Shown: piece by piece, positions 15,559 through 61,016 of the stretch
Numbering within the stretch: the stretch's first letter is position 1
How the letters are laid out: each line of letters begins with the position of its first letter
Assembly (NCBI GenBank): GCA_015143295.1
Contig: CM026567.1
Span: forward strand, 11,426,416 to 11,490,415
Source of the DNA: Tetracentron sinense
Taxonomy: Eukaryota; Streptophyta; Magnoliopsida; Trochodendrales; Trochodendraceae
Direction: 5' to 3'
Length of the DNA: 64,000 nt
Made by a program: the position numbers and the translations under genes
The notes under the pieces: model-generated
The model's database searches: none
What the model was told of the DNA's origin: nothing
The model's input: only the letters and a program-made list of their open reading frames with translations

Positions 15559-15742
15559 ACCGATCGCTCGGTCCATGGAGCGATCGATCGGTCCAAAACC
15601 GATCGATCGGTAGCTATCTACTGGTCAAGATTTTTGTATGGGGAAATTTTCCAGAGAGTTGATTTTTGGTCGAGAGCTCGGTCAACACACCAATCGCTCG
15701 GTAGGCAACCGATCGATCGGTCATAACCACCGATCGCTCGGT
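15559..15742. repeat. Palindrome array, element 1 5' LTR (ACCGATCGATCGGT type)
   Basis: Seven or eight copies of a 14-bp unit at or near the perfect palindrome ACCGATCGATCGGT. Some carry one arm variant (ACCGATCGCTCGGT). They form two groups separated by a conserved TTTTTGTATGGGGAAATTTT spacer. The array lies between the conserved 60-bp block and the promoter. Every unit contains several CpG sites. Confidence 0.9.
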
Positions 15743-16592
15743 CTTCGTGTTTTTGCAGAAATTTCATTAAGGGTGTTTTCATCTTTTGGGCGTTTCACTC
15801 ATGCCTTAAAGGCTTTGCCCGATCATTTGAGGGTTCATACACAACCCTTAGAGTCTTTTGAGAGATAGAGAGAAAGGAGAAGGGTTTCCAAACCTAGGGT
15901 TTGCTTTGGGGAGAAATCAAAGGGGTTTCAAGACCCACAATCATCCTCAAGCTCGTTTTCTTCAAGATCGAGGTTCAAGCACGTGAGGAGCACTTTCTCC
16001 AAGCTAGGGCAGCGCCTCACGAACGTTTTTGGAGGATTTTTCTTCCTCATTGATCAAGGTCGGTACTTCTTGCTACCCTCCTAGTCATAGCTCCTCTTTT
16101 CCTTTATTTCTCTTTGTTTCCTTCCTTTGTACATGTGCTATGAGTTTGGAAGCATGAACGTGGTGAATGGTGATGGAATAGGCGATTGGATGCCAATGGT
16201 TGTATTGTGATGATTAAAACAGGGGAGGGCATTGTATCCATAATAAACACACATTTATGATGTGAGTAAACTCTCCTAGAAAAGCATAATTTAGGTTTAA
16301 ATGAATAATGAATAATGAACACACCATGTTTGATGAAATGCCAAGGTGAATAAAGTGAGTTGTAAATTAGGAAATGCATGCCTAATAAATTATGAAAATT
16401 GCTAGGGCCTATGATAGTGTGTTTTCTTGTTTTCCCTAAATGATGTGAATAGTGCATTGCTCAATCATTGATGTTACATGTGTGGTGAATTACCCAAATG
16501 TCATATTTACATTTAAATGCAAGTATGTACACGATTCCCATGAGCACGGCATGCATGACATGATTTACTGAGGTTTTCAAGAATATGGTTAG

Positions 16593-16624
16593 AGGTAGGA
16601 CATATCCTACGATATGTTTTACCT
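16593..16624 (+). other. Conserved leader hairpin
   Basis: AGGTAGG ACATATC-CTAC-GATATGT TTTACCT forms a 14-bp stem (two G-U) with a 4-base loop. Homologous hairpins occur at 24063-24094, 38621-38653, 60069-60101 and, on the minus strand, 43877-43910. Confidence 0.6.
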
Positions 16625-16659
16625 TGCTTTTCACAAGAAAACAAGAATAAACATTCCAC

Positions 16660-16867
16660 GAGGGGTCTCCCCTCACTCACAAGTGTATAACATAAATAAG
16701 GGCCTCCCTTCCCTCGCGAGTACATACATATCATAAAGAAGGGTCTCCCCTCACTCACAAGTGCATAGCATAAAGAAGGGCCTCCCTTCCCTCACAAGTA
16801 CATACATATCACGAAGAAGAGTCTCCCTTCCCTCTCAAGTACATTGCATAAAGAAGGGTCTCCCTTC
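16660..16867 (+). repeat. Hairpin minisatellite in element 1 leader
   Basis: Six ~40-bp units built on GAAGGGYCTCCCTTC or GAGGGGTCTCCCCTC, each a self-complementary stem with a YCT loop, followed by CCTC.CAAGT.CAT. The 3' LTR has the same array at about 24130-24340. Confidence 0.75.
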
Positions 16868-17263
16868 CCTCTCAAGGCATCTCATAAGCGCATCTCATAA
16901 GTACATCTTACAAGTGTATCTCACAAGTTACATGATCACAAGCAAGCACGCATGACATGCATGACATGCATGACATGACACGATATACAAGAATCAAGCA
17001 AAATAGACAAGACGAGTTTTCAAGCACGAAAATGGTACCTTAAGTCAAGTCAAGTGCACGGTGTTTTCAAGGGTTTTATCGGCTTTTATGAATGCAAGCA
17101 TGATTATATACTGCTTTACTTAATTGTTATGATATGAATTATTCCTGCTTTATGTGTGAATTGTTTCCTGCTCTATGTATCGCTATCTGTATGCTATGAC
17201 TGTTGGTTAGTATTTGGTACCCGCTGAGTATTCCATGCTCAGCCGTACTTCTTATGTCGGCAG

Positions 17264-17373
17264 GTGATAGCGGAGCGGCTGCTCCTTTTGATGTCTGTGC
17301 TCCTGGCCCATGGGTGGAGGAGGAGTACATTGAGGAACCTTTAGAGGAACCTCCGGTCGAGGGTTATTATTAG
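17264..17373 (+). other. Conserved acidic peptide exon, element 1 5' LTR
   Basis: After the AG acceptor, 35 codons read GDSGAAAPFDVCAPGPWVEE.. and end in EGYY-stop. Homologous exons in the other LTRs keep the frame, the PW(I/V)EEEY core and the terminal Tyr-stop, although the nucleotides have diverged. The start codon is uncertain. An ATG (MSAGD) precedes it here and in three relatives but not in the others. The function is unknown. Confidence 0.55.
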
Positions 17374-17672
17374 ATGGTAGTAGATTCTGAGTGATATAGC
17401 TGTGGGTGAGTTGAGAGAGATACATCCATGTATTTTGGCTGGCATGTCCGCACTTTCTTTTGTATATCTTTTTGAATAACTTGGATCACATGTATATACA
17501 TAGAGGTTTTGTTTAAGTATTCTGCTGTGCTATGTTAGGGAATGTTTCCGCCATTTATGTCCTCTATTGTATATGCTCTGCCGGTTTTGCAGGTTGGTTT
17601 GTCAAGCAAGTCATGATTAGTCGTCTAAGATTCACTCTAACTTCTAGGGTGGGTTTTGGGTCGTGATAGAAG

Positions 17673-17684
17673 TGGTATCAGAGC
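17673..17684 (+). other. Element 1 primer-binding site
   Basis: TGGTATCAGAGC, complementary to the 3' end of plant initiator Met-tRNA, 4 bp after the LTR end. Confidence 0.9.
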
Positions 17685-18028
17685 CTAGGCTTTAGGTCTT
17701 TAGGGTCATTTAGAATCTATACCACGGCTTGACAAGAGCATATGCCCGGAAACAAATTAGGAAGGAAGTAAGTCGGAAGCGAGTCATGATTCCAAGTGAG
17801 AGACTAAACTTTAGTCTAAGTCAAAATGTTTGCTTCAACCAAGTACGCTTCTTAGGAACACTAGAACGCCAAAGTATAATATCATAAATACTCTAATGAC
17901 TTGATGCGATGTATATTAGTATTATATTATACACATAATGCCACTTGAATTATTGTGAAATGGAAATGCGATAAATTATGGTTTCAAGAGAGACTCATGT
18001 GGTGCTATTGTTCTCAGGACTTTAGTCA

Positions 18029-19276
18029 TGAGGCGGGGCACACGGAGTCGTGGACCACACACCAGAGCTTCTTCTTCTTCATGAGATGAGGATGAGCAGC
18101 CGGACCTCTCTCAGGTCTTAGGCTCTATTGCTGAGACTCTCGCCATTCTGCGGCTCGGCAGGCTATACCTTCTTCGGCGGCACCTACTCCACCGCCTACG
18201 GCTCCAGTACATCGTACAGCTGGGGTTGAGGCATTCAGGAGATTGAGGCCTCCACCATTTCATGGGAGTGTGGAACCTCTTGCTGCGGAGGCGTGGATCC
18301 TCCAGATGGAGAAGATCTTTGCGGTCCTCTCGCCTACAGAGGGGGATAGAGTAGCATGGGCAGTTTTCATGCTAGAGGGCGAGGCACATCACTGGTGGTT
18401 GTCTGCCTTGAGGACACAAGATTTGACCATGCAGGGTCAACCCTTGGACTTGGGAGGAGTTCAAGGATACTTTTTATAAAAAATAGTTTCCTATTGGAGC
18501 ACGGGAAAAGAAAGAAAGAGAGTTCATTAACCTGGAGCAAGGTTCGATGACTGTGGCTGCTTGTGAGGCTAAGTTCTCGGAGCTATCACGCTTTGCTACT
18601 CACATGGTTGCCACCGAGGCAATGAAGGCAAGAAGGTTTGAGCAAGGGCTCAAAGAAGTTATCATGGAGAAGGTTTCGGTTTTCAGACATGCTACCTACC
18701 CTGAGGTAGTGGACAAAGCCTTATTTGTCGAGGCGAATTCTGAGGCCGTGTCCAAGAAGAGGGAGTTGGCGAGAGGCCAAGCCAGTAGTTCAGCACCTCC
18801 AGAGAGGCGGGCTCGTACCGGCCCTTATCAGTATACGTGGCCAGCACCACCGATGAGGCCATCTTATGCGCCTCCAACTCCACGATAGTATGTGCCTCAG
18901 GCACCGCGACCTCAGGCTCTTCTAGCTCCACGGCCAATTGCACCTCAGACAGTGAGGTATGCTCCACCTCCGGCCCCTCCGACCTATACACACGAGGTCT
19001 GCACTTCGTGCGGTCGAAGGCACCCGGCAGGAGATTGCCGAAGGGCATCGGGTGGATGTTTTCATTGTGGTCGCCAGGGCCATGTGATCAGGGATTGTCC
19101 CAGTTGGCATTTACCAGGCCAGTCTCAGGGGATTAGGTCCCTAGCACGCCCAGCAGGATCATACCAGGCGTCATCCCAGACTACCCGGTCTACACCTCAG
19201 CCTCGCCAGGTGAACCAGGGGCGAGTTTTTGCCTTGACAGAAGGTGATGTACTTGCATCTGACGATGTAGTGCAAG
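18029..19276 (+). pseudogene. Element 1 gag
   Basis: ATG at 18029 (MRRGTRSRGPHTR), with a TGA at 18083. The capsid-like region RPPPFHGSVEPLAAEAWILQMEKIF..LEGEAHHWW lies in another frame (18243-18479). It continues after a shift at 18547 (MTVAACEAKFSELSRFA..). A TAG falls at 18886. Two zinc knuckles follow: CTSCGRRHPAGDC and CFHCGRQGHVIRDC. The structural Gag would coat and package the element RNA. At least two frameshifts and two stops make it non-functional. Confidence 0.85.
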
Positions 19277-19418
19277 GTACGCAGTTGTAATTTATTTAAT
19301 TACCCGTAATTAAATTGTTATGTATTATTCTTTGTGTACGTATATGGCATGTTATATATAAATACCTATTTGTATACGCTGTTGATGCATGGATTGACTT
19401 AGCTAGCTAAAATTTCAG
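19277..19418 (+). other. Predicted intron between gag and protease
   Basis: 142-bp AT-rich segment bounded by TGCAAG|GTACGC and AATTTCAG|GAACC. Removing it joins ...VVQG to [18 protein letters not shown] in one frame. Retaining it gives a stop (TAA at 19288) a few codons after the donor. Confidence 0.6.
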
Positions 19419-22400
19419 GAACCTTACTAGTTAATGAGTGTTTGACTCAAGTGTTGATTGATACCGGGTCTACTCATTTGTTTGTCTCACCTGAGTTTTT
19501 CAGAAGGCTTTTCTGTGGAGCCTAGTCAACTAGAACCAGAGTTAGCCATTTCGACTCCTCTCGGCAAAATAGTGTTGACAAACAAAGTGTGTCGAAATAG
19601 TGTGGTTCAAGTGGGAAGCCACGAGTTGGCGGTTGACCTAATAGTTCTTGGATTCCAAGACTTTGACGTGATATTGGGAATGGATTGGTTAGCAGCACAT
19701 CACGGGCATGTAGCTTGCTTTGAGAAAATGGTACTCTTCAAGCCAGTAGAAGGAAAATCATTCCACTTTCGCGGGTTGAAAAGTAGAGATATTGCTCGTT
19801 TTGCAGCGTTGAGCTTAGCTAACCCCGAGGCAAAGGACTCATCGACTATGCCGGTTGTGAGTGAATTCCTGGATGTATTTCCAGAGGAGTTGCCAGGGTT
19901 ACCTCCAGACAGGGAGATTGAGTTTGTGATCGAGCTTGCACCAGGCACAGCTCCTATGTTCAGGGCTTCATATAGAATCGCCCCTATTGAACTCAAGGAG
20001 TTGAAGACTCAGTTGGAGGAATTACAAGGCCTTGGTTTCATACGACCAAGTGTCTCACCGTGGGGTGCCCCGGTAATGTTCGTTAAGAAGAAGGATGGCT
20101 CGATGCGGATGTGCGTCGATTATCGGCAATTGAACAAAGTCACTATAAAGAATAGATATCCATTGCCTAGAATCGATGACTTGTTTGATCAGTTGAAAGG
20201 AGCGAGATTTTTCTCAAAGATAGATCTTCGGTCAGGCTATCACCAGTTGAAGATTAAGGCGGAAGATGTTCCCAAAACTGCTTTTCGGACTTGATACGGA
20301 CACAACGAGCATGCGCCGGCAACCTTTATGGATTTAATGAACCGGGTATTCCAGCCATATCTTGATCGATGCGTGATAGTATTTGTTGACGATATCTTGG
20401 TGTACTCCCAGACACGGGAAGATCACATGCGAGACCTTCGTCTTGCTTTAGAAATGCTAAGAGAGCACAAGCTGTACGCCAAACTTAGCAAGTGTGAGTT
20501 TTGGTTGGAAGAGGTGGCATTCCTAGGCCACGTTGTTTCTGCGGAAGGCGTCTCGGTTGATCCAAAGAAAGTAGAGGCAGTTATGAGTTGGGCGAGGCCT
20601 AAGAGTGTCACAGAGATACGCAGTTTCCTTGGGTTGGCAGGCTATTACAGGAGGTTTGTGGAGGGTTTCTCCAGTCTTGCAGCACCACTCACTTACCTGA
20701 CGAGGAAGAATGCGAAGTTTGTATGGAGTGACAAGTGTGAGATCAGTTTCACGGAACTGAAGAAGAGGCTTACTACAGCCCCTGTCCTTACTCTGCCATC
20801 CAGACCTTATGGGTATGAGGTGTATAGTGATGCCTCACACGTTGGACTTGGGTGTGTGCTCATGCAACACAAGAAGGTCATTGCCTATGCGTCTAGGCAA
20901 TTGAAGGAGCATGAGAAGAATTACCCCACACACGACTTGGAGCTTGCCGCGGTCGTGTTTGCACTCAAGATTTGGCGACACTACCTTTACGGGGTATAAT
21001 TCTATGTGTATATGGATCACAAGAGCCTCAAGTATCTCTTTTCCCAAAAAGAGTTAAATCTAAGGTAACGGCGTTGGATGAAATTTTTGAAAGATTATGA
21101 TTGTACCATTCAATACCACCCGGGTAAAGCAAATGTAGTGGCTGATGCTTTGAGTAGAAGACCTCCGGATTATTAGCAAGCATGTTGGTGCAGGAATGGA
21201 AGCTACTTGAAGGTTTGGCAAATCTGGACATCAGTGTGGATGACTCTGTCCGTAGTCCTATCTTGGCAAATGTCACGGTTCAGCTATACATTATAGATTT
21301 GATCCAAGAATACCAAGCCACGGATGCTGAATTATTGGCTTATCGGGACAAGGAAGTTGTCAAGGGTAGTGAAGACTTCTCTCTCACTAGCCGAGGTGCT
21401 ATCACATTCAAGGGAAGGCTGTGTGTCCCAGCCAATGCAGATCTTCGAAGGGAGATTATGGATGAAGCCCACCGGGCAAAGTACACTGTGCATCCAGGGG
21501 GTACGAAGATGTACCGAAACCTCAAGAGTCACTTTTGGTGGCGGAATATGAAGAGGGATGTTGCGGAATATGTGGCATGGTGCTTGGTGTGCCAACAGGT
21601 GAAAGCAGAACACATGCGACCCGCCGGTCTATTGCAGTCTCTTCCTATTCCCGAGTGGAAATGGGAGAACATATCCATGGATTTCATAGTTGGCTTGCCA
21701 AAGACAGTAAGGGGCTCAGATGCGATATGGGTAGTAGTGGATCGTTTGACAAAGTCTACGTATTTCTTACCTTACCGGACCACGTTCAATTCTAATCAGT
21801 TGGCCGCTCTGTACATCAAGGAAGTTGTTAGGCTACACGGGGTGCCAGTTAGTATTGTCTCAGATCGGGATCTAAGATTCACATCCAGATTTTGGAAAAG
21901 CTTTCAGGAAGCTATGGGTTCCCGACTTGATTTCAGCACTGCTTTTCATCCACAGACGGATGGACAAACCGAGAGGGTGAACCAAGTAATAGAAGACATG
22001 CTTTGGGCTTGTATGCTGGATTTCAAAGGCAGTTGGGAAGAGCACTTGCCTTTGGTAGAGTTCGCCTACAACAATAGCTACCAGGCGAGTATCCAAATGG
22101 CTCCATTCGAGGCTTTGTATGGGCGAAGTTGCAGGTCTCCTCTCTACTGGGATGAGGTAGGAGAAAGAAAAGTACTTGGTCCGGAGTTGATCGAGCAAAC
22201 TGCAAGTATAGTTAAGATCATCCGGGATCGGTTGAAAGCCACTCAAGATCGTCAAAAGAGCTATGCGGATACGCGCCACAGGGACTTGGAATTCCAAGTT
22301 GGGGATCGAGTCTTTGTGAAAGTATCTCCTAGCAAAGGGATTATGAGATTCGGAAAAAGAGGCAAGCTTAGTCCTCGCTATGTTGGACCGTTTGAGATTA

Positions 22401-22717
22401 TCACGCGGGTTGGTGAAGTTGCTTATCGAGTAGCTCTTCCACCTCACATGGCCGCGGTTCACAACGTTTTCCATGTGTCTATGCTTCGGAAGTACATTGC
22501 AGATCCTTCGCATGTCATAGACTTGGAGCCGTTGGAAATACGGGAGGATCTCACTTTAGTGGAGAAGCCGGTTCACATATTGGATCGGAGAGATCAAGTC
22601 CTTCGCAACAAAACGATTCCGTTGGTTCTCGTGCAATGGCAACATCATGCTCGAGAAGAGGCTACATGGGAGCGAGAGGCCGAAGTCAAGGCGAAGTACC
22701 CAGAATTGTTTGAATGA
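19419..22717 (+). pseudogene. Element 1 pol (protease-RT-RNase H-integrase-chromodomain)
   Basis: Protease active site LIDTGST is at about 19455-19475, followed by a frameshift before 19510. RT runs from [13 protein letters not shown] and includes [16 protein letters not shown] and [12 protein letters not shown] at 20292 and a 27-nt in-frame deletion just after it remove the MPFGL segment. RNase H ([12 protein letters not shown], 20815 on) is cut by stops at 20997, 21066 and 21174. Integrase (21182-22717) has the HHCC region, catalytic residues in MDFIVGLP, VSDRD and TERVNQ, the GPF motif YVGPFEIITRVGEVAYRVAL, and a chromodomain ending EEATWEREAEVKAKYPELFE. The integrase frame is open for 511 codons. 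Confidence 0.9.
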
Positions 22718-22802
22718 GTTTTGTATAGGTTTTGTATATGACTTGTCATTTTGTTTTGGTTTGTAATGCAAGTATCGTCTAAATTTCGAGGACTAAATTT
22801 TT

Positions 22803-22817
22803 GTAAGGGGGGGAGGA
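22803..22817 (+). other. Element 1 polypurine tract
   Basis: GTAAGGGGGGGAGGA directly before the 3' LTR (TGCAGAGCTCCGG). It primes plus-strand DNA synthesis. Confidence 0.85.
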
Positions 22818-25131
22818 TGCAGAGCTCCGGACTTTTTTATGTTTTATGCATGGCACTTTCGTAGCCAATTTACCTTTAAAGTAGTACAATTAATAAATAA
22901 GGAAGAAATTGGAAATTCTGAAACATCAGAAATGTTCCTTTTCGAAGTACGAACCCAACGCAAGTTGAATCGTCAAAATCCGACTAACGAGTTAAAAGAT
23001 ATGGCCAAAACAATTTGGACCTACAGAGCACCGATTGCTCGGTCCATGGAGCGATCGATCGGTCCAAAACCGATCGATCGGTAGCTATCGACTGGTCAAG
23101 ATTTTTGTATGGGGAAATTTTTCAGAGAGTTGATTTTTGGTCGAGAGCTCGGTCAACACACCTATCGCTCGGTAGGCAACCGATCGATCGGTCATAACCA
23201 CCGATCGCTCGGTCTTCGTGTTTTTGCAGAAATTTCATTAAGGGTGTTTTCATCTTTTGGGCGTTTCACTCATGCCTTAAAGGCTTTGCCCGATTATTTG
23301 AGGGTTCATACACAACCCTTAGAGTCTTTTGAGAGATAGAGAGAAAGGAGAAGGGTTTCCAAACCTAGGGTTTGCTTTGTTGAGAAATCAAAGGGGTTTC
23401 AAGACCACAATCATCCTCAAGCTCGTTTTCTTCAAGATCGAGGTTCAAGCTCATGAGGAGCACTTTCTCCAAGCTAGGGCAGCGCCTCACGAACGTTTTT
23501 GGAGGATTTTTCTTCCTCATTGATCAAGGTCGGTACTTCTTCCTACCCTCCTAGTCATAGCTCCTCTTTTCCTTTATTTCTCTTTGTTTCCTTCCTTTGT
23601 ACATGTGCTATGAGTTTGGAAGCGTGAACGTGGTGAATGGTGATGGAATAGGCGATTGGATGCCAATGGTTGTATTGTGATGATTGAAACGGGGGAGGGC
23701 ATTGTATCCATAATAAACACACATTTATGATGTGAGTAAACTCTCCTAGAAAAGCATAATTTAGGTTTAAATGAATAATGAATAATGAACACACCATGTT
23801 TGATGAAATTCCAAGGTGAATAAAGTGAGTTGTAAATTAGGAAATGCATGCCTAATAAATTATGAAAATTGCTAGGGCCTATGATAGTGTGTTTTCGTGT
23901 TTTCCCTAAATGATGTGAATAGTGCATTGCTCAATCATTGATGTTACATGTGTGGTGAATTACCCAAATGTCATATTTACATTTAAATGCAAGTATGTAC
24001 ACGATTCCCACGAGCACGGCATGCATGACATGATTTACCGAGGTTTTCAAGAACATGGTTAGAGGTGGGACATATCCTACGATATGTTTTACCTCGCTTT
24101 TCACAAGAAAACAAGAATAAACATTCCACGAGGGGTCTCCCCTCACTCACAAGTGTATAACATAAATAAGGGCCTCCCTTCCCTCGCAAGTACATACATA
24201 TCATAAAGAAGGGTCTCCCCTCACTCACAAGTGCATAGCATAAAAAAGGGCCTCCCTTCCCTCGCAAGTACATACATATCATGAAGAAGGGTCTCCCTTC
24301 CCTCTCAAGTGCATTGCATAAAGAAGGGTTTCCCTTCCCTCTCAAGGCATCTCACAAGTGCATCTCACAAGTGCATCTTACAAGTGTATCTCACAAGTTA
24401 CATGATCACAAGCAAGCACGCATGACATGCATGACATGACATGATATACAAGAATCAAGCAAAATAGACAAGACGAGTTTTCAAGCACGAAAATGGTACC
24501 TTAAGTCAAGTCAAGTGCACGGTGTTTTCAAGGGTTTTATCGGCTTTTATGAATGCAAGCATGATTATATACTGTTTTACTTTATTGTTATGATATGAAT
24601 TATTCATGCTTTATATGTGTGAATTGTTTCCTGCTCTATGTATCGCTATCTGTATGCTATGACTGTTGGTTAGTATTTGGTACCCGCTGAGTATTCCATG
24701 CTCAGTCGTACTTCTTATGTCGGCAGGTGATAGCGGAGCGGCTGCTCCTTTTGATGTCTGTGCTCCTGGCCCATGGGTGGAGGAGGAGTACGTTGAGGAA
24801 CCTTTAGAGGAACCTCCGATCGAGGGTTACTATTAGATGGTGATAGATTATGAGTGATATAGCTGTGGGTGAGTTGAGAGAGATATATCCATGTATTTTG
24901 GCGGGTATGTCCGCACTTTCTTTTGTGTATCTTTTTGTATAACTTGGATCACATGTATATACATAGAGGTTTTGTTTAAGTCTTCCGCTGTGCTATGTTA
25001 GTGTATGTTTCCATCATTTATGTCTTCTATTGTATATGCTCTACGGGTTTTGCAGGTTGGTTTGTCAAGCAAGTCATGATTAGTCGTCTAAGATTCACTC
25101 TAACTTCTAGGGTGGGTTTTGGGTCGCGACA
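22818..25131 (+). repeat. Element 1 3' LTR
   Basis: 2314 bp, TGCAGAGCTCC to GGTCGCGACA. It is very similar to the 5' LTR. It carries the palindrome array at 23030-23213, the donor at 23528/23529, the hairpin at 24063-24094, the hairpin minisatellite at 24130-24340 and the acidic peptide exon at 24727-24836 (one Ile/Val and one Pro/Ile difference from the 5' copy). Confidence 0.95.
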
Positions 25132-26787: not shown

Positions 26788-28934
26788 TGTAACGACCCCA
26801 AAATCCTACAAGGCTAAAATAGGACTTTGGAATCGTCACATTACTTAAACCTGCTTAAAATCCATGCATACAAGGCTTACTACACTAGTCTCTAGAAATG
26901 AGAGTAATAAAATTTCGATATATAAAAACCAAGTCATCCTGCTCAAGTCTATACTCAATGTAACCACCCACAATAAAACAAATAGTCTAACACCCAACTG
27001 TAAAGTAATCTTATGAGCAACATCATCTAAAAGGTCTATTACAAAACTCTTAAACCAAACAAAACATGAACTAGTAGGTGTAATCATCCAAGCCCCTGGC
27101 TCCCTCCTCGGAAGGCTCACCTTCTCCTCCTTCCTCGACGTAAGTCTCTTCAATCCATGGCTCCGCCGTGTGCTCCTGCTCTAAACCTGCCAAGACAAAG
27201 TCCGGCTGAGTACAAAAGTACTCGGTGTATATAAAATCCAACCAACAACATAATACACCTGCACTTAGGTAGAATCATATCCAATAGCCTAATAACATAA
27301 TCAGAGTGCGGAAGAACATGTGCTCATATACATCATATCATCACTTTGACTCGTGTACTTGTGAGAACTTTAGACTTAGTAGACAACATACTTATGAGAT
27401 GCTTATGCTTATGCGCTTATTCAGATCATACAGTGATGTGACATGCCGTTCTTGGCGGATACGGACCATGCCTAAGAAATTATAAAATGGACATGCCGTT
27501 CTTGGCAAATACGGACCATGCCATGCTTATGCTTATTCAAAATGTCACACGTATGCCATGCTTATGCCTATGGTCCACATGTGTGACTTGTGAGACTCTT
27601 ATTTTAACATATACGTGCATCTGTGCTTAAGTGTCGAAACTAACATTCGAGTTGGTAATTGCTTAGATTCCAATTTCCCACCATGGAAACTCGACTATAC
27701 TATCCTATACCAAATAGTTAAAGAATTTCCGGTTTGAGAGATTTCCTCGAAGTTCTTACCTTCCCGACTATCAATTTCCATGCAAGTAATTAGACATACT
27801 TAACAAACAATCACATATAAATATCTTATCATGATCTTTAGCACAATTCATAATCAGTTTCCTACAATTCCATAATAGAATATTAGTATTTATCCTCTCA
27901 AGCATTTTCACAAACACCTTGGGTACGTAGATCATGAATCCATTGCCCTTTCACATTTCCAACATTCCATCAAACCATAATCCTTCCATACAATCCAAAT
28001 ACCATCCATATCCACACATTCATCCCACCTCCATAATATATTTCTCATCCTCCATACATTTCATCCACATTAATACTCCATATTTCTATCCATAATAGCT
28101 TACTTTATACAAAAATAGGGAAAAACACATCTAATTTCTATTTCTATCATTTCTATCATATTAACATTCACAAAACATTATAATAGAGTTGATTGGGATA
28201 GTATATCGACCTTAGGGATCCTTCCCTTGGATCCAAATTGCTCACAAGATGATTTGAGGAAGCTTTGAGGACGATCTCCAAGCTTTCCTAGCGATATCCA
28301 AGCTATCTCCTTCTTCTCTAAGCAATCTTTCTCCCAAAACCCTAGGTTTTCTCTCTCTTTTGCCAAATTAGGTTAGAAATAGGTAGAGTACTCTAATATC
28401 TCGAAATAGGACCCCCTATTTATAGTCCCAAGGTTTGAGAGCCAAAAGACCTAAAAGTCCTTACTGAAATTTTGTAAAAACACGAAAGACCGAGCGATCG
28501 GTGGTTATGACTGAGTGATCGGTCGCCTACCGATCGACCTGTGGTTATGACCGAGCTCTCGGTCAAAAATAGCATCTCTGGAAAAATTTCCCATATAAAA
28601 AAGTTAACCAGTCGATAGCTACCGATCGATCGGTTGCAGACCGATCGATCGCTACTTCTGGCCGAGCGATCGGTTTTGTACCGATCGATCCCTAGCGATC
28701 GGTGCTCTGTAGATTTTGACCCATTTTACTGTTTTGGTCATAACTTTTGACTCGTTCGTCGGATTCCGACGATTCAACTTGCGTTGGATTCGTCTTTCGA
28801 AAAGGAACATTTCTGGCATTTTAGAATTTTCAAATTCCACTTAAATATAAACACATAAACATTAAAACATCTCAAGGACTATAATATTCTTAATGCTTGC
28901 AATAAAAATATGAAAAAGAATCCCGGTCTCTACA
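26788..28934 (-). mobile_element. Solo chromovirus LTR inside element 3 LTR
   Basis: 2147 bp, minus-strand TGTAGAGACCGGG... to ...TTTTGGGGTCGTTACA, flanked by CCTAA (26783-26787 and 28935-28939). It carries a palindrome array (28489-28703), TATA (CTATAAATAG at 28417-28425), donor CCTAAG|GTCGATAT (28211/28210), an acceptor after TTGGCAG, and a diverged peptide exon (27071-27186: LEQEHTAEPWIEETYVEE..., ending DDYTY-stop). Confidence 0.9.
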
Positions 28935-29539
28935 CCTAAGGCACGAACCCAGCCCTTATATAGGCAAAGGATAGTGGCTAAAGTCTTAAACACCCTTAAT
29001 GAAGAAAATCTGCGTATGATCGATCGATCGGTGGTACAGATCGAGTGATCGGTGACTGACCAGTCAATCGGTGGTTTCAACTTGTCAATCGGTTGAAAAC
29101 ACCCTCTCTGAAAATTTTTCCCATACAAAAAGTTAACCACTTTATAGTTACCGAGCGATCGGTATAAGACCGGTCGATCGGAGGTTATCACTGAGAGATC
29201 GGTGGTCCCCTGTTTTCTGCAAAACCCTGTTTTCACTACTTGAATCTTCTCCAAACCAATTCTAACACCTTTTAATATTTAAAACACACTCCTTAAGGAT
29301 ACATAGACCTATTAGAACATGCATGCCATAAATCCAAATATGTATATTAACATAAGGCCCATTGGTGCACAACACCATACTTGAGCACTACTCACATACT
29401 ATTCACTGCTTAGTCAAATATGGATTCGGGGTTCTACATCCCTCCCCCCTTACAAGAATTTTGTCCTCGAAATTAGAACGACACCAAAAGCACAACAAAA
29501 TAAAATACATACAAACCATGAAGAAAAAGTAAAATAAGT

Positions 29540-34260: not shown

Positions 34261-34299
34261 GAATTCACTCACGACTATTCCGGTTGTGAGTGAATTCCT
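34261..34299. repeat. Inverted repeat at the deletion junction
   Basis: GGAATTCACTCAC, a 13-base spacer, then GTGAGTGAATTCC: perfect 13-bp arms. The right arm is normal pol sequence. The left arm is not LTR-derived and looks templated from it. Confidence 0.8.
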
Positions 34300-34302
34300 G
34301 AT

Positions 34303-37149: not shown

Positions 37150-37545
37150 ATTTTGTTTGTGCTATGTAATGATGTTTTGGGATTATAATGCAAGTGTCGT
37201 CCAAATTTCGAGGATGAAATTTTTATAAGGGGGAAAGGATGTAGAGCCCTAAAAACTTTTTGCCATGTATTGGAAACGGAACTCTAAGTGTTTAGAAGTA
37301 GTATTCCTAAGTTGGATCTATTGAAAACCCGAGTTACGGAAACTCGTTTGCGGATCAATCAATTTTAGGGGTAATTTGGTAAATAAATAAAGAAGAAATT
37401 GGAAATTCTAAAATACTAGAAATGTTCCCCTTCGAAAGAAGAATCCAACGCAAGTTGAATCGTCAAAATTGGACAAGTGAGTCAAAAGTTATGGCCGAAT
37501 TACTAAAGTGGGGGAAAATGGAAGAAAACAACAAAATCTAGAGGG

Positions 37546-37804: not shown

Positions 37805-39127
37805 TGAGGTAACTGAAGCTAGATTTGAGGGTCTTAAACCCTTTTCTTGTTTAGGGATCCTCATTTGGGGCCTTTCTAACCTAGAGAAGAGAAAGAGGGG
37901 GTTTCCAAGAGGGTTTTGGATTGGAGAGAAGGATTTGCTCCAAATTTCTTCCCCAAATCTCAAGATCTTCCTAATCCAAGCTCAAGCAACTTGTGGAGTT
38001 CTCCAAGCTAGGCAATGCCTTCCACGAGCTATTTCAAGGGTTTCTTCAACCTATTCAAGGTCGGTACCTTATACTACCCTCCTAGTTCATATTATTATCC
38101 TTTTAATGGTTTTCCCCAAATTTTAAACAAGATAATAAGATGGGATGAATGGATGAAGGAGGATGGTTGTGTGGATGTGTATGGGCATTTGGATGTCGTG
38201 TGTATGTGTTGTGATGAACGAATGGGAAGGGCATTATACTAATAATGAACACAAGTGTATGTTGTGAACGTTAAACCACCTAGAAATCCAAGATTTGGTA
38301 TTTACCATAATGCACATACCAAGTGTTTGATGAAATGCCTCAATGAAGAAGATGATGACTTATTCTAGAAATTGCATCTGTGAACTCCCTTGTTTCCTAA
38401 ATAGCATATTGATAGATTAAATGTTTAATTATTGATGTATTAATTATCAAATGCAAATGCTGTATATGCCATTGTCATCCTTAATTGTACACGAAGCCAC
38501 GAGCATGGCATGTAGTCCACGAGTAGGGTTTCAAGCATTAAACACCGTGTTTTGTTTTCAAGGTTTTATTCCCAATTCACGAACACCATGACAAGGCCAA
38601 ATGAAAGGGTTGGTAAATAGAGATAGGGCATATCTTAAGATATGTTTTGCCTCGCTTTTGACACGAACAAGAACGCCCCAAGCATGCAGGTTACATTCAA
38701 TGCATTTCGTTAAAGAGAGGTCTCCCCTCCCTCACAAGTTGTTTCTCATTTAGGAAGAGGGGTCTCCCCTCCCTCACAAGTAGCATGAACATGTTTATTT
38801 TTCAAGCAAGCAAGCAAGCATGATACATGATATGACACGCATGACAAGCATGATACAAGCATGACACGATACGATACGACAAGACTAGACACATGATAAG
38901 ACAAGTTTTCATGCACGAAAAGAATATTTTCAAGGCAAGTTAAGCACATGATGTTTTCAAGGGTTTTACCGGTTTTGATGTGATGCAAGCATGAACTATA
39001 AACTGTTTGCTTTCCTGTTATGATATGAAGTGCTTTCTGCCCTATATTGTTATTGCTATGTTATGGTTGTTGGTTAGTGTTTGGTACCTGCTTAGTATTC
39101 CATGCTCAGCCGTACTTATGTCGGCAG

Positions 39128-39237
39128 GTGATAATGGAGTGGCTGCTCCTTTTGATATCTGTGCTCCGAGCCCTTCGGTGGAGGAGGAGTATGTTGAGGA
39201 ACCTGTGGAGGAACCTCACGTAGACGGTCACTATTAG
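39128..39237 (+). other. Conserved acidic peptide exon, element 2 LTR
   Basis: GDNGVAAPFDICAPSPSVEE.., ending HVDGHY-stop. Same length as the element 1 exon. The usual Trp of PWVEEE is Ser here. The frame continues open upstream for ~40 codons of hydrophobic sequence but without an ATG. Confidence 0.5.
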
Positions 39238-39548
39238 GTGGTAGATTCTAAGTGAGAGATTGTGGGTGAGTGTGAGAGTTATATTCACGTATTTTGGCGG
39301 GCCTGTCCGCACTTTCTTTGTTTTGATTTCCTTTTTGTTTGAACATGGATCATGTGTATATATATACATAGAGGTTTTGTTAGACTTCTGCTGTGCCACG
39401 TTAGAGTATACTTCCGCTGTTCTTGTCCTCTATTGTATATGCTCCAGGTATTTTGTAGGATGGTTTGTCAAGCAAGTCATGCAAGTCATGATAAGTCGTC
39501 CAGGATTCACTCTAACTCCTAGGGTGGGTTTTGGGTCGCGACACCGAG

Positions 39549-42883: not shown

Positions 42884-44994
42884 TATCGCGACCCAAAACC
42901 CACCCAAGGAGTTATAGTGAATCTTGGACGAGCTATCATGCCTTACATGACGTGCTTGACAAACCAATCTGCAAAATACCTGGAGCATGCACAATAGAGG
43001 ACAATAAAAGCAAAAACATAAGTACAAAGCACAGCAGAAGTCTAACCAAACCTCTAAGTATATATACATGATCTAAGTTTTATACAAAAGGGAACAAAAG
43101 AAGGTGCGGACAGGCCCGCCAAAATACATCAATCTAATCTCTCAACCTCACACCCACAGCTCACTCACTCAGAATCTACCACCTAGTAGTAGCCCTCGAC
43201 CTGAGGTTCCTCCGCAGGTTCCTCAACGTACTCCTCTTCTACCCACGGGCTAGGAACACAGATATCAAAAGGAGCAGCCGCTCCACTATCACCTGCCGAC
43301 ATGAGAAGTACGGCTGAGCATGGAATACTCAGCAGGTATCAAATACTAACCAACAGTCATAGCATAACAATAACAATATATAAAGCAGAAAAAAATTCAT
43401 ATTATAACGCAAGAAGCAATTCATATTATAACGCAGGAAACAATTCATATAATAACAAGGAAGTAAAGCAGTTTATATTCATGCTTGCATCACATAAAAG
43501 CCGATAAATCTCTTGAAATCATCATGCACTTGACTTGACTTAAAATACTCGTTGCGTGCTTGAAAAACCTATCATGTTTATCTTGCTTGATTTTGTCGAG
43601 TGTGTCATGTCATGCGTGCTTGCTTGGAATTTAAACATGCTCATGTACTTGTGAGATGCGCTTGTGAGATGCACTTGAGAGGGAAGGGAGGCCCTTCTTT
43701 AATGAGATGCAATTGAGAGGGAAGGGAGGCCCTTCTTTAATGAGATGCACTTGAGAGGGAAGGGAGACCCTTCTTTAATGATATATACTTGTGAGTGAGG
43801 GGAGACCCCTCATGGAAGGGAGGGAAGTGTAAACTCCCTCCTATGCGGTGCTTGTTCTTGTCCTCATGTCAAAAGCGAGGTAAAACATATCGTAGGATAT
43901 GTCCCACCTCTAGACCTTAATCATGAAAACGCCGGTAAACCCTGTCACGCATGCCGTGCTCGTGGAATCGTGTGCATGCTTTCATTTGAAATTAAATATG
44001 ACATTTGGGGATTTCAACAATACATAGAACATCAATAATTGAGCAAGTAATTATTCATGCAATTTAGGGAAAACGAGTAATCACACTATCATAAGCCCTA
44101 GCAAGTCCATAAGCTTTTAAGCATGCATTTCTTAAGTTACAACCACATACATTTATCTTCCATTAGGTTCATACATTAGGCAAGATAAAGAAGAAGGAAA
44201 AGAAAGAGGGTATGAACTAGGAGGGTAGCAAAAGGTACTGACCTTGAAAAGAGGAAGAGAACCCTTGCAAGAGCCGAGGTTGAACGCTGCCCTAGCTTTG
44301 GAGAACGAGCTTCTCAAGTGCTTGAGCCATGAACTTGAAGAAATCCAAGCTTGAGGTGATCTAGGGTCTTCAACCCCTTTGATTTCTTCTCAAATGCAAC
44401 CCTAGGTTTAGAAATCCCTTGCTCCTCTTTCCCTATCTCCCAAATGTCTTACTTAGGGTTTATGAACCCCCAAATGCTCGGGCAGACCCTTTAAGGCAAG
44501 GGTGATACGCCCTAAAGATGAAAAAGCCCTTACTGAAATTTCTGCAAAACGCGATATACCGATCGATCGGTGGTAAATACCGAGCGATCGGTCGCCTACC
44601 GAGCGATCGGTGTCTTTGACCGAGCTCTCGGTCAAAAACATGCTCTCTGGAAAATTTCTCCATACAAAAAAGTTAACTAGTTGATAGATACCGGTCGATC
44701 GGTTGTGGATCGATCGATCGCTAATTTGGACCGAGCGATTAGTTGTGAACCGATCGATCCCTAGCGATTGGTGCTCTGCAGATTTTTGACCCATTTTACT
44801 GTTTTGGCCATATCTTTTGACTCGTTCATTGGATTTTGACGATTCAACTTGCGTTGGGTTCATCATTCGAAAAGGAACATTCTTGACATTTCAAAATTTT
44901 CAATTTCTCCCTTATTTATTAATTGGACTACGTTAAATACCAATTGACTATGGAAGTGCTATTCATTAAGTACGAAAAAGCCCGGGGTTCTACA
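42884..44994 (-). mobile_element. Solo chromovirus LTR in the copia 3' LTR
   Basis: 2111 bp with TSD TATCC (42879-42883 and 44995-44999). The intact copia LTR at 54921 shows the empty site. On the minus strand it starts TGTAGAACCCCGGGC. It has an ACCGATCGATCGGT-type array (44558-44773), donor TTTCAAG|GTCAGTAC (44243/44242), a hairpin (43877-43910), GAGGGAAGGGAGGCCCTTC minisatellite units (43673-43812) and the peptide exon 43183-43292 (GDSGAAAPFDICVPSPWVEE.., ending VEGYY-stop). Confidence 0.95.
43183..43292 (-). other. Conserved acidic peptide exon, solo LTR at 42884
   Basis: 35 codons, APFDICVPSPWVEEEY..., ending VEGYY-stop, after a CATGTCGGCAG acceptor. Nearly the same protein as in element 1, although the copy is in a solo LTR. 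Confidence 0.55.
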
Positions 44995-46101: not shown

Positions 46102-46264
46102 AGGATCTATCTAGTTTGGGGAGGATAGATCCTTCAATTCCACACACTGATGGATCTATCCATCCCCATGACCGATCGATCGACCAAGCCCAATTTTCTA
46201 TGGGTTTTTGGCTAGAGAGTGATTTTTTGAAGGATCTATCGGTGCTCTTGACCGATAGATCCTT
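46102..46264. repeat. Inverted-motif array, solo LTR at 45463
   Basis: GGATCTATC and its complement GATAGATCC recur in both orientations, with one ACCGATCGATCGACC unit. One inverted pair reads AGGATCTATCGGT...ACCGATAGATCCT. It occupies the same slot before the TATA box as the palindrome arrays in the other LTRs. Confidence 0.75.
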
Positions 46265-52896: not shown

Positions 52897-52898
52897 AA

Positions 52899-55716: not shown

Positions 55717-58003
55717 TATATAGCCCCGGAATTTAGGTTCATTGTTCATATGAATAGTGCTGTGAATAGTGTGTGAATAGTGCCTTCAAGGCCTAAAGCC
55801 TTAATGGAATTGTGAGTTCATGTTTTATAATGAAAGGAGGTATTGAATGAATCAAAATATGTATGGAAAGTATTTTTGGGGGTTGAGGACAAATGAAAAA
55901 TGAGAGTATAACATACTCCAAGTGTCAAAGAACTGGATGCCTAAACATACCCTCAGCTTTAAAGAGCTCTAGAATTCTCACCGCTGATCGGAATTGAGTG
56001 ATTCTTGAATTTTTGGAAAGATATTGAAACCCTCTTCAAGGTTCATTCTACCACTTTTTTAGATTTTGAGTCATGATTGGATCAAACGTCAGATTTCTAG
56101 AAACGAGTCTACTGAAAATCTGGGCTGCTGAAACCCATTTTCGGACCAGTCAGCTTTATGGGAAATTTTATCCATGAATAAAGAAGAATTAGAAATTTTA
56201 CAAAACATGAAAGTTGTTCCCATTTGAAATAAGAATCTATCGCAAGTTGAATCGTCAAAATCAGATAAGCGAGTCAAAAGTTATGATCAAAATACTAAAG
56301 AGGGAAAAACCCAGGCCTGTCATAACTTCACTAGTCGATGAGTGGACTTCACTAGTCGACGAGTGAGCACCACTCGTCGACGAGTCAGCCCTAAAAATTC
56401 CCAAAAACGTCTTGAAATATCCCAGAACTCTTCCATCGACCTTGGGAGATATTTTGGGATTCTTTCCTAGGATATTTTGGGATTTTTGACAACCTTTAGA
56501 CTATAAATAGATGAGATTTCGTGGGTATGGATTTACCCAACCTAAAGCATAGATTTTGAGGATTCTTGGAAGAGAAGAAGAAGAAAACTCTGATTTCTCA
56601 AAGCGTTCTTCTCCGACCAAAGTGAAGCTAAATACTTGCTTCTAAGGTTTGTACCTTACTAATTTTAGTGTTTTAGAGATTGGATTTTCTACCCAAGGTG
56701 ATCTCAAATTCTAAAATCAAAAGAGGGGTTTTTGGTTTGTTTTCCAATTAAGGTTTAGGTTTCTCAAAGCTTCAACCAAATTCCCTCAAGCTTGATTCTT
56801 GTTCCACAGAAGTGTAAAAACTTCATTTTAAGGTAGATACACACTACTATCTATCATGTGCTATATTTTTAAGAAAACCATGATACACAGTATATTTCTC
56901 AGATGAATTGGATAATGATTTTGACATGAGATGTAAACTATCACTACTATTGAAATTCTATGAATATGATTCCATGTTTACAAGCTTTCTAAGGATACCT
57001 TGATGTTCACAAGTACTCTATGCACTCTATGTTCACAAGTCTCGCATGATTCGATGATTTCTCACAAAAAATATATTTTATAAAGTTCATAAGCAAGGTT
57101 TTTCTAAAAGAAAGCTCACAAGTTCACAAGCTTACAAGTTCACAAGAAATCATGCATACTCAAATCTCGCATGCTCACAAGTTTCTCAAAAGCTCATTCA
57201 TATCTCACAAGGCATCATTCATATCTCTCAAGGCATTCATATCTCACAAGGCATCATTCATATCTCGTAAGGCATCATATGTGGCTCACATGACTCATAA
57301 GTACTTATTTGCATTCTTAAGAACTCATAAGCGATTGATTTACACACGACCTCACAAGATACATTTTGTTCTCTACGAAATTTCACAAGACAAGGTTTAA
57401 AATGCTATGCACTTGTAAAAGTATGATTTCCAAGTTCGGTTTATAGCATGAAATATGAATTGTTAACACTTTATGTGCTCGCTTGATATTGTTACCTTAT
57501 ATCACTGTTAGCTAGTATTTTGTACCCACTGAATATTCCATGCTCAGCCGAATTATTGACTTCGGTAGGTTTTGTGGACGCACATACTCCTGAACCTTGG
57601 ATAGAGGAGGAGTACTACGAGTTGGAGCCTGCTATGGATTACTACCAAGATGATGGAGCTCTAGATAGGGGGTCCTATCTAGACTATTGTTGAGTGATGT
57701 GAGGGAGAAGGTCATGTATTTTGAAAGTGGAAAATGTCCACTTTAGATTATATATTTTGAGAGTATTGAGGGTGGGAATTGTCCACCTCATACTTAAAGT
57801 TTACTGTGTTCTGTGGTTCAAACTTGAACCTAATGATAGGAGTACGTTATTTTGAATTGCTTCCGCTTTGTTTTAGTTATATGTATAACTTGTGCGCTCT
57901 GACAGGATGTTAAGTATGCCTTATGTGTCATACGGGATGGTTTGACATGGCGGTTACGGGCTAAAGTATCTCTAACTCCTAGGGGGTATTTTGGGTCGTG
58001 ACA
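55717..58003 (+). mobile_element. Solo chromovirus LTR inside the AspRS pseudogene
   Basis: 2287 bp, TATATAGCCCCGG (decayed TG end) to GGGTCGTGACA, with flanks ATGTC / GTGTC (four of five match). It has an ACTCGTCGACGAGT-type array (56329-56385), TATA (CTATAAATAG at 56511), donor TTTAAG|GTAGATAC (56832/56833), TCACAAG-rich leader repeats (57110-57300) and a peptide exon from 57569 (FVDAHTPEPWIEEEYYELEP, then AMDYYQDDG...). Confidence 0.9.
56329..56385. repeat. Palindrome array, solo LTR at 55717 (ACTCGTCGACGAGT type)
   Basis: Three units: CACTAGTCGATGAGTG, CACTAGTCGACGAGTG and CACTCGTCGACGAGTC. The palindromic core GTCGAC differs wholly from the CGATCGATCG core of other subfamilies, but it lies in the same slot, 127 bp before TATA. 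Confidence 0.85.
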
Positions 58004-58260
58004 GTGTCGGTTCCTGGTGTTTCAATCAAGGGTGCTTCACAGCAGGTAATTTTGCTTTACCGAGCTGAATTGTGTAGTTTGGATATTTTGAAACCCAATA
58101 GAATTGATATTGTTTCCTGTAGGGGGAAGTTCAAGTAAGGAAACTTTATGGCATTAGCAAAGTTGTGCCAAATCTCCCTATCAATATTGAGGATGCTGCT
58201 CGAAGTGAAATTGAAATTGAGAAAGCATTGTAGGTTTGCTTACAAATATGAACTTTAATT

Positions 58261-58788
58261 GTTTTTAGGAGTGATAACCGGATTTGCAAAGCTTTGCAGG
58301 AATTCCAAACTACAAAGATTTCTAGAGATTGTAATTACATTCTTATCTAGCTCAGTAAGGAGCTCTATTTTGGATTGAAAATTCACTTCAAAATATATTT
58401 GAAGATCTCAAGAGAAGGTGTTTCTCTTGCATTGAAAGGTGTTGATCTTCAACCTGTGAAGAAGATTGTAAAAGGCGGTATCTCAGCCTGCAAGGGACTG
58501 TAAGGTTTGAGCTTCACCCGGTGAAGAAGCTTGTATGAATAATATTGTAGAGAATCTTTGAAGTGGGAAGCTAAAAGGCGGGGATTTAGGCAAGTTGCCG
58601 AACCTCGAGAACAATATCTAGGTGTTTGTATCTATTTGTATCTCTTTAATTCTCTGTCTCTCATTCATATTAATTATAGTTTATTGCATTGCATTAAATT
58701 CCTTAATTCCGCAAAATAGACCAAGGTAAATTTTTATTGTGTCATTGACCTTAATCACCCCCTCTAGGGTCCATTTACTAGGCAACAC
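58261..58788 (+). mobile_element. Copia-like LTR relic
   Basis: The start (58266-58300) is related to the fold-back MITE (GTGATAACCGGATTTGCAAA). The remainder (TTGTATGAATAATATTGTAGAG.., GGCAAGTTGCCGAACC, T-rich AATTCTCTGTCTCTC, ending AATCACCCCCTCTAGGG) has the look of the 3' half of a Tork/Ale-type copia LTR. The interior is missing and element 4 interrupts it. Confidence 0.45.
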
Positions 58789-61016
58789 TATAGAACCCCG
58801 AAACTTTTCACACCTAATGAATAACGTTCTCATAGCCAATTGGCCTTCCACGTAGTCCAATTAATAAATAAAGAGGAATTTAAAAATTCTAAAATGTTAG
58901 AAATGTTCCTTTTCGAATGAAGAATCCAATGCAAGTTGAATCGTCAAAATCCGACGAACGAGTCAAAAGTTATGCCCAAAATATGAAAACGGGAAAGTCT
59001 GGAAAATTTCTGCAAGAGTTACGAACGATCGTCCAGACCCTACGAATAATCGTAGGTGAGCTACAATCGATCCTAGAAAATCTACAATCGATCTTAGAGT
59101 TTCAGAAATGGGCATAAATCTCGGTAACGTGTACGATCGATTCTAGAAAACTTACGATCGATCGTAGAATTCCAAATGGCCAAAACTCTCTGTAACATTT
59201 ATGATCGATCGTAGAAATTTACGATCGATTGTAGAAATTTACGATCGATCGTAGAAGGTTATGATCGATCATAGAGAACCTATGACCGATCGTACGTCGC
59301 GGACCCAGAATTTTATTAGGGATTTTTAGGGTTTCCACCCTTGGCCTATAAATAGGGGGCCTCTTGGGGGGTTTATGGTTTACCCTAAACCTAAAAAAAA
59401 CCCTTAGGAGATTAGAGAAGCAGAAGAGGAGAGATTTTAGGATTTTCCAAGAGGGTTTGAAATTGAAGAGGAATGAGATCAAGATCAAGGGTGATCTTCC
59501 CAAAATCAAGCAAGGGGGTTTCTTCCAACCTCGGTAGTGACCTACACATGTTTTGGAAGGTTTCCCCTCATCTATTGAAGGTCGGTACCTTGTGCTACCC
59601 TCCTTGTCATATTTTCTTGCCTTTATTGCTATGTTTCTCTATTTCCTTGCTATTCCCTTAAATGTTCACATGATATAAGATGGAATTAGTGAATAAAATG
59701 TCATATGGATGTTGTGTTCTGATGAAAATAAATGTGAAGGGTATTTCACCAAATAATGAACATACAATGGATGATGGATGGATTGGATGAATCTTTAATC
59801 AAGAAAAGCATGATTTAAAGCATATGAAAATTTCTAGGGTTTATGATAGTGTGATTATTCACTTTCTATAACGGCATGAATAATTATGTGTTGAAATGAA
59901 TATTATTTCATGTATTATTGAATTTCAAATACCACGTTTAATTTCAAGCTAAAGCATGTGCACGAGCACGGCATGCATGACATGGTTTCTCGGTGTTTTA
60001 CAATACAAGGGTTTTATTCTCGATTCACGAACACCATGACAAGGCCAAATGTAAGGGTTGGTAAATAGAGGTAGGGCATATCTTACGATATGTTTTGGCT
60101 CACTTTTGACAAGATCAAGAACACATCAAGCAAGATTGCATCTCATTGAAAGAGGGGGTTCTATACCACCCTCCCTCGCAAGTGCATCTTATTGAAAGAG
60201 GGGGTTCTATACCACCCTCCGTCACAAGTGCATCTCTCCCAAGCGCATGAGCATGTTTAAATTCCAAGCAAGCAACCAAGCATGAGCATTTCACATTTAA
60301 TGACATGACACGACACGCATGACAAGATATGACACACATGACACGACAAGACAAGCAAGACAGAATATGACAAGACAAGTTTTCAAGCACGAAAAGATTA
60401 TTCAAGTCAAATGAAGTACACGATGATCTTAAGAGTTTTCCCAGCTTTGATGTGATTGCAAGCATGAAATATAAACTGTTTACTTTCCTGTCAATTAAAT
60501 AAACTATTTCCTACTTTATTTGGTTATTATTATGCTATGACTGTTGAATAGCATTTGGTACCCGCTGGGTATTCCATGCTCAGTCGTACGTCTTATGTCG
60601 GCAAGTACTGAAGGAGCAGCTGCTCCATTTGACATTTGTGCTCCTGGCCCATGGGTGGAGGAGGAGTGCATCGAGGAGGTCCCTACCGAGGAGCCTCATG
60701 TTGAAGGCTATTACTAGGTGGTAGATTCTAGGTGAGTGTGGGTGAGCATGAGAGATATATACTCATGTATTTTTGACGGGCATGTCTGAACCTTCTTTTG
60801 TTGAGTTCACTTTTGTACAAAACTTGGATCACGTATATACGTAGAGGTTTTGGTTAGACTTCCGCTGTGCCATGTTAGTTTATGCTTCCACTATTTTGTC
60901 CTCCATTGTATATACTCTGTATGTTTTGCAGGATGGTTTATCAAGCATGCCATGTTGATCATGATAAGTCGTCCAAGATGCACTCTAACTCCTAGGGTGG
61001 GTTTTGGGTTGCGATA
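58789..61016 (+). repeat. Element 4 5' LTR
   Basis: 2228 bp, TATAGAACCCCG to GGGTTGCGATA, both ends decayed from TG/CA. It carries a palindrome array (59021-59294), TATA (TATAAATA at 59347), donor TTGAAG|GTCGGTAC (59580/59581), a hairpin (60069-60101), two 46-bp hairpin units (60152-60219) and a peptide exon (60604-60717: STEGAAAPFDICAPGPWVEE, ending VEGYY-stop). The acceptor AG is changed to AA here. Confidence 0.9.
59021..59294. repeat. Palindrome array, element 4 LTR (CTACGATCGATCGTAG type)
   Basis: About eleven units around TACGATCGATCGTA, some with AATCGATC or GATCGATTC variants, ending 53 bp before the TATA box. Confidence 0.9.

Follow-up and report, generated by a model that had tools for sequence, protein, structure and literature searches.

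Across 64,000 nucleotides of the Tetracentron sinense genome (assembly GCA_015143295.1, contig CM026567.1, forward-strand positions 11,426,416 to 11,490,415; hereafter the window) and in further copies from the same assembly, retrotransposon long terminal repeats (LTRs) carry, ahead of the TATA box, arrays of short dyad-symmetric units spaced two helical turns apart, whose arms match between designs and whose designs differ on homologous promoters. These arrays are probably binding sites for a protein dimer in the U3 region, where they would form the upstream activating region of a chromovirus-group promoter. All nine arrays proposed by the initial annotation are present in the window where it placed them (Table 1), with lengths of 57–274 bp and a GC content of 0.39–0.54. 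The window contains 13 perfect 14-bp palindromes with CG, every one of them within the arrays and seven of the nine arrays represented (29017–29203 and 46102–46264 have none), compared with 0–4 such palindromes in each of 20 dinucleotide shuffles. A conserved anchor block precedes eight of the nine, no anchor being found for the minus-strand array 29017–29203 at up to 12 mismatches of 40. Five window LTRs have a legible start, and in these the first unit lies about 210–306 bp from it. Five window arrays are followed by a TATA box, at a distance initially given as 53–127 bp and measured here as about 52–116 bp.

The class of the carriers was read from Pfam matches in the two array-bearing elements with a legible pol, E1 and E2. 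The E1 pol shows RVP_2, RVT_1, RNaseH, Integrase_H2C2, a weak rve, SH3_Tf2-1 and Chromo, the latter at 22.6 bits, below the 25.1 cut-off; E2 repeats this order from reverse transcriptase onward with Chromo at 25.6 bits, and no protease was found in the pieces of it that were scanned. By this domain order both are plant Ty3/gypsy chromoviruses, whose pol runs protease, reverse transcriptase, RNase H, integrase, chromodomain, an assignment that covers these two elements, the remaining array LTRs not being joined to a pol. The reverse transcriptase matches listed carry no clade name, those named being mostly from eudicots; the LTR length of 2.3 kb suggests, we presume, the Tekay/Del clade.

Genome-wide, the ACCGATCGATCGGT unit has 30,033 copies in the 1.16-Gb host assembly, against three of the reversed word, and the anchor core has 22,857 exact matches (11,498 + 11,359), against 103 (65 + 38) for a control. 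In 200 kb read at preset places (20 stretches at about 1–10 Mb on contigs 1–17), each of the five anchors found had palindromes behind it in which 6 or more of the 7 pairs matched, four of the five at the stricter design score. Slots totalled 154, including 140 further anchor slices, for which we used 80 of about 100 listed places in the first 31.5 Mb of contig 1 (skipping second matches within about 12 kb, one place already included and the last two) and 60 of about 100 places on contigs 1–3. With a summed score of 6 required for a label, 61 of 80 slices of the contig-1 set received one, as did 40 of 60 of the second set and four of five at preset places, so that the claim of an array in every such LTR does not hold. 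Palindromes reach at least twice the shuffle level and at least 1.5 per slot in 15 of 26 flank families; of the 11 below this threshold, some have sparse or degenerate units, and families 7 (four slots) and 16 (two slots) have none. The TCGA arm-swap test used 94 slots, the first spacing analysis the 73 of these reaching the design score, and the within-design covariation the same 73 minus seven CAACG slots; all 154 served for the palindrome-blind test and the flank families, 113 labelled slots for spacing and TATA distance, 49 with a TATA block for the promoter tree, and 106 labelled slots, CAACG excluded, for neighbour-unit covariation and the G–U test.

Where four designs had been described initially, differing in sequence and keeping their symmetry in one slot, the difference and the symmetry are borne out and the number rises to a dozen. 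Six designs are common, with exact copies in 4–33 slots each: ACC-, TGC-, TAC-, GGC- and GAC- arms on CGATCGATCG, plus ACTCGTCGACGAGT. A further six are each represented by one exact copy, with degenerate units beside it in the same slot: TCCGATCGATCGGA, TTCGGTCGACCGAA, ACCGGTCGACCGGT, TCCGGTCGACCGGA, AAACGTCGACGTTT and ACCGTTCGAACGGT. Nearly all designs are centred on TCGA; CAGTCGGCCGACTG stands at one site, and the centre of CAACGTNNACGTTG is open. Among the genome matches listed, GCCGATCGATCGGC stands at three places and TCCGATCGATCGGA at several further ones. Only 125 of 587 units are identical to their design, ACCGATCGCTCGGT and AGCGATCGATCGGT are asymmetric units that recur in fixed form, and the L087 array holds ACCGGTCGACCGCT, ACCGATCGATCGCT and the intermediate ACCGATCGACCGCT together. 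Two other symmetric sequences were seen outside the arrays. The palindrome AAACCCTAGGGTTT, which we take to be telo-box-like, lies about 75 bp downstream of TATA and about 340–360 bp after the anchor in four ACC-type slices (L028, L043, L060, L068), with near versions in other slices, and the anchor block at 28778(-) contains an inverted repeat, TCGTCGGAATCCGACGA, that resembles the ACTCGTCGACGAGT unit.

Symmetry between designs was measured at sites chosen for their TCGA centre. Perfect 14-bp palindromes made up 94 of 298 such sites in 94 slots (two of which had been fetched via the motif itself) compared with 4 of 545 in the background, and swapping arms 500 times gave a mean of 22 and a maximum of 32. 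In a palindrome-blind version, which takes one repeated TCGA site per flank family irrespective of symmetry, 12 of 26 families qualified with 11 distinct sites; 45 of 55 arm pairs were complementary against a null of 23.0, none of 100,000 re-pairings reached this value, and four of the 11 sites were perfect. The outermost pair of NNCGATCGATCGNN, counted genome-wide, is purine–pyrimidine in 52,078 and pyrimidine–purine in 15,805 cases, compared with 3,284 purine–purine and 3,234 pyrimidine–pyrimidine, that is, 67,883 of 74,401 in the matched class (91%, or 85% without ACC/GGT), a class that also takes in A–C and G–T and in which families are weighted by copy number. The symmetry between designs exceeds what slippage of one motif would give, contrary to the alternative of tandem slippage without symmetry excess.

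The GGATCTATC family reaches symmetry differently: its unit is not palindromic, and it is two opposite units, at a distance of 21 bp, that together make a 14-bp inverted repeat around a 7-nt loop. This pattern, with open pairs, occurs at 85 + 68 places genome-wide and at none in the control. At pair 12, 100 listed copies (26 distinct) have C–G in 41, G–C in 40 and other pairs in 19, with neither C–C nor G–G; among the 26 distinct copies, C–G occurs in 2 and G–C in 13. Pair 2 is A–T in 75 listed copies, T–A in 8, T–T or A–A in 12 and other in 5. The pair-12 switch is a true two-sided co-change by transversion, and may be a single event inherited by one subfamily.

Spacing is more uniform than spelling. 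Labelled slots gave 503 successive spacings, of which 403 were 34 bp or less; 357 of these were 19–21 bp, and the mean over spacings of 17–23 bp was 20.4 bp. By design, the mean short spacing is 19.8–21.0 bp in 12 of 14 cases, the looser exceptions being CAACG (22.6 bp, with spacings of 23 and 34) and TTTCG (22.0 bp, with 22 and 31–32). Identity among distinct spacers of 5, 6 and 7 nt is only 0.38, 0.30 and 0.34, and a spacing of two helical turns over such near-random spacers favours a protein on duplex DNA. Gaps between sub-arrays, at 48–52 bp (46 cases) and 69–72 bp (31 cases), are not in one helical phase, and a helical-period fit over all spacings found no clean 10.5-bp phase once these gaps were counted; phasing is therefore claimed within sub-arrays only. 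A TATA-like word follows the last unit in 73 of the 113 labelled slots, with none in the stretch read for the other 40, and lies 45–116 bp from the array end (median 64; 73 slots including the window).

Different designs sit on related promoters. In a tree of TATA-centred promoter blocks from which the arrays were excluded, a group of 27 of the 49 rows combines TGC (10), GAC (8), ACC (8) and TCC (1) at a support of 99/99, many of its inner branches being weak, and the design label changes 16 times over the whole tree, where 11 is the minimum possible. Unit positions correspond between slots, as in L085 (46/67/117) and L130 (47/68/118). By eye, a spacer around TATGGG between sub-arrays is common to ACC, L087, L104 and GGATCTATC arrays; the word itself is present in 42 of 154 slots, of which 31 have the ACC design. 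Either whole-array recombination or unit turnover would do to place differing designs on homologous promoters.

The place before TATA, the arm matching between designs and the two-turn spacing over unconserved spacers together lead us to favour dimeric sites on duplex DNA. On this proposal, each row would offer dyad-symmetric sites (2–11 units per LTR, counted in LTRs only), each bound by a dimeric DNA-binding protein, and the two-turn spacing would align the bound dimers on one face of the helix ahead of TATA. Each subfamily would combine a common chassis of anchor block, one or two sub-arrays and TATA with its own site sequence, presumably because it is adapted to another host factor, another paralogue or another condition; alternatively, re-spelling may have taken the sites out of reach of a repressor or of silencing small RNAs.

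Several points weigh against dimeric sites. The initial annotation had described arm changes as matched on both sides, which it took to suggest selection on dyad symmetry, with a homodimeric factor as one of three possible causes; this matching, present between designs, is absent within them: of 2,772 pair cells, 11 showed two-sided matched changes against a null of 11.6, 460 changed on one side and six on both sides without matching. Seven of the 11 are C–G to T–A changes, which independent CpG decay would yield too. Arm matching thus belongs to the source design rather than to an ongoing constraint on inserted copies, which decay arm by arm, as expected for dead insertions. The lower variation of columns within units than in the flanks, seen among copies, speaks for the sites, but the units were picked by likeness to a design, a choice that itself tends to select conserved columns. 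The designs were listed via a palindrome search, a bias that only the TCGA-conditioned and palindrome-blind tests reduce or avoid; no slot holds an exact copy of the TTTCG or CTCGC type, and six designs rest on a single exact copy. Units that are stably asymmetric throughout whole families indicate that not every unit requires full symmetry. The dyad centres of the GGATCTATC arrays, read by eye at roughly 0, 2, 7 and 12 nt, would misfit one rigid dimer, and tandem duplication could have passed on the regular spacing.

The leading alternative, selection on RNA self-complementarity, we consider unlikely, though the best placed of the rivals. The full-length transcript carries U3 in its 3′ part, and units that pair with each other there might act in packaging, 3′-end formation or, at a cost, the production of small interfering RNA (siRNA). 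Arrays do fold far better than shuffles (z from −2.7 to −8.3 for 17 arrays, −2.3 to +0.7 for 15 downstream controls), pair 12 of the GGATCTATC inverted repeat switched from C–G to G–C without C–C or G–G intermediates, and palindrome clusters of maize Sireviruses are described as small-RNA hotspots in passages of PMC10760457 and PMC5311732. Complementary changes are somewhat more frequent between neighbouring than distant units in GAC (10/32 vs 10/64), TAC (16/136 vs 46/628) and ACTCG arrays (4/44 vs 0/18), but not over all palindrome designs (adjacent 54/936, distant 174/3,077), and TGC arrays show the reverse trend (8/239 vs 86/829). There is no sense-strand tolerance of G–U (C>T 142 vs G>A 169; A>G 18 vs T>C 48), and folding has no need for two-turn spacing. 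RNA pairing thus gains no overall support from substitutions, the inverted-pair family excepted, and a fold-back structure is possible but less supported.

A neutral origin appears improbable. Template switching can generate perfect palindromes, and quasi-palindrome correction by this route, with tandem slippage, would leave arrays without function whose arms decay independently within families, as they do; the shared slot, the narrow range of mean spacing in 12 of 14 designs and the lower divergence of units than of flanks argue against it, and the stable asymmetric units imply that correction is not active.

The initial annotation also pointed to a striking CpG density. CpG observed/expected is 1.43–2.30 in eight of nine arrays, compared with 0.54 for LTR sequence outside the array and 0.61 for the window as a whole; at 0.63, the GGATCTATC array 46102–46264 shows that the density is not common to all designs. 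The E1 LTRs share 18 of 20 CpGs in the array and 37 of 60 elsewhere. In ACC-type slices CpGs have decayed less in units than outside (31/388 vs 39/210, p=0.0003; 9/165 vs 23/143, p=0.001), while TGC- and TAC-type slices show no such difference (p=0.35 and 0.84), and within units the sites other than CpG are less variable as well. That dense symmetric CpGs act as a methylation sensor or CpG-island device reporting the methylation state of the promoter gains a little from the density in eight arrays, the E1 comparison and the ACC-type units and is, given the TGC-, TAC- and GGATCTATC-type arrays, the least probable of the readings.

Table 1. Arrays and associated features in the window. Pattern matching located the primer-binding site (PBS) and the LTR boundaries, which resemble TGTAGAGCCC at LTR starts and GGGTCGCGACA at LTR ends.
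Feature	Position	Strand	Remarks
Element E1, chromovirus	15349..25131	+	5′ LTR 15349-17668, 3′ LTR 22818-25131; LTR-LTR identity 96.4%
Conserved anchor block (GTTGAATCGTC...GAGTCAAAAGWTATG), 5′ of array	15494..15533	+	E1 5′ LTR
Array, ACCGATCGATCGGT design	15559..15742	+	E1 5′ LTR
E1 PBS TGGTATCAGAGC	17673	+	pattern match
Array, ACCGATCGATCGGT design	23030..23213	+	E1 3′ LTR
Array, ACCGATCGATCGGT design	28489..28703	-	minus-strand LTR; TATA 28425(-)
Array, ACCGATCGATCGGT-like, without perfect unit	29017..29203	-	LTR start 29438(-), TATA 28963(-)
3′ LTR of E2 (chromovirus)	37240..39543	+	E2 pol at 34297-37146
Array, TGCGATCGATCGCA design	37546..37804	+	within E2 3′ LTR coordinates
Array, ACCGATCGATCGGT design	44558..44773	-	LTR 42884-44994(-)
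Array, inverted GGATCTATC/GATAGATCC pairs	46102..46264	+	includes 14-bp inverted repeat with 7-nt loop; TATA 46343
Array, ACTCGTCGACGAGT design	56329..56385	+	21-bp spacing; TATA 56502
Array, TACGATCGATCGTA design	59021..59294	+	TATA 59347

Other features were seen in the window. The PBS of E1 is, we assume, of the tRNA-Met type. E1 is flanked by an abutting direct duplication of 346 bp (15004–15349 and 25132–25477, 97.7% identical) that looks like a very long target-site duplication, the usual length being about 5 bp. Short tandem arrays on CTCACAAG or CTTGTGAG occupy the downstream half of several LTR types (16663–16943, 24133–24398, 43643–43808, 46845–47101, 57112–57278 and 60137–60236). 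Direct repeats at 40812–42886 and 52899–54932 (93.5%) are the apparent LTRs of a minus-strand Ty1/copia element with RVT_2, gag_2, a PBS-like site at 52885 and a 28-bp AT-rich repeat with inverted arms.

The chromovirus arrays are best read as a Ty3/gypsy equivalent of the Sirevirus arrays of palindromic repeated motifs (RM), an architecture already published (PMC2829016, Bousios et al. 2010). The available passages of that paper describe RMs as family-specific, multicopy and CpG-rich, starting 200–400 bp into the LTR just before a conserved TATA box, and as specific to Sireviruses compared with 'classic' elements. Both systems repeat a dyad motif in the upper LTR at the same position before TATA, a palindrome excess being measured in the arrays here. 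A Sirevirus-type array is expected to have at least eight motif copies per element, and the LTRs here carry 2–11 units each. Some chromovirus designs contain the CGGTCGACCG of the Vitis RM. However, Sireviruses are Ty1/copia elements, and membership was rejected for E1 and E2, whose Pfam domain order is not the Ty1/copia one with integrase before reverse transcriptase; what they display is Sirevirus-type architecture in another superfamily. Most designs here also lack the CGG–CCG signature and share the TCGA centre instead: the CGG–CCG arrangement occurs only in designs containing CGGTCGACCG and not in ACC, TGC, TAC, GAC, GGC, ACTCG, TTTCG, AAACG or CTCGC, and one published RM, Tnd-1, is likewise without it in the same passages. 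The two-turn unit spacing was measured here, while those passages do not discuss spacing between units.

Maize Sirevirus palindromes, too, form clusters in the cis-region of the LTR with strong predicted RNA structure (Bousios et al. 2016, as cited in passages of PMC10760457 and PMC5311732), whereas maize Ty3/RLG elements generally have no obvious peak of structure, according to the part of PMC10760457 available. Tnt1 (PMC2829016), ONSEN and EVADE (PMC12786077) resemble the present arrays in carrying host-factor sites, putative in our case, upstream of the LTR promoter; theirs, as far as the excerpts of these sources go, are motifs for particular stress factors, whereas here a dozen designs share one chassis. 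An open-access literature search, judged by its listed matches and by passages of some of them, turned up no previous account of such arrays in the LTRs of plant Ty3/gypsy elements, and the matches listed for the letters CGATCGATCG and GATCGATC included nothing relevant, two that were checked being a Hi-C junction setting and a primer.

An RM-type layout reported as specific to one Ty1/copia genus is now found in a very abundant Ty3/gypsy group, which suggests that plant retrotransposons arrived repeatedly at a common promoter solution or exchanged it. With a dozen natural spellings on one chassis, the arrays provide a variant set for finding the host factor and the reason why the promoter is re-spelled. 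We tentatively picture a promoter socket with exchangeable keys, in which one chassis would accept at least a dozen dyad keys in a single genome, tuned to different host dimers or escaping a shared repressor or pool of siRNAs. If this is true, the arrays would be a base-resolution record of the arms race between host and element.

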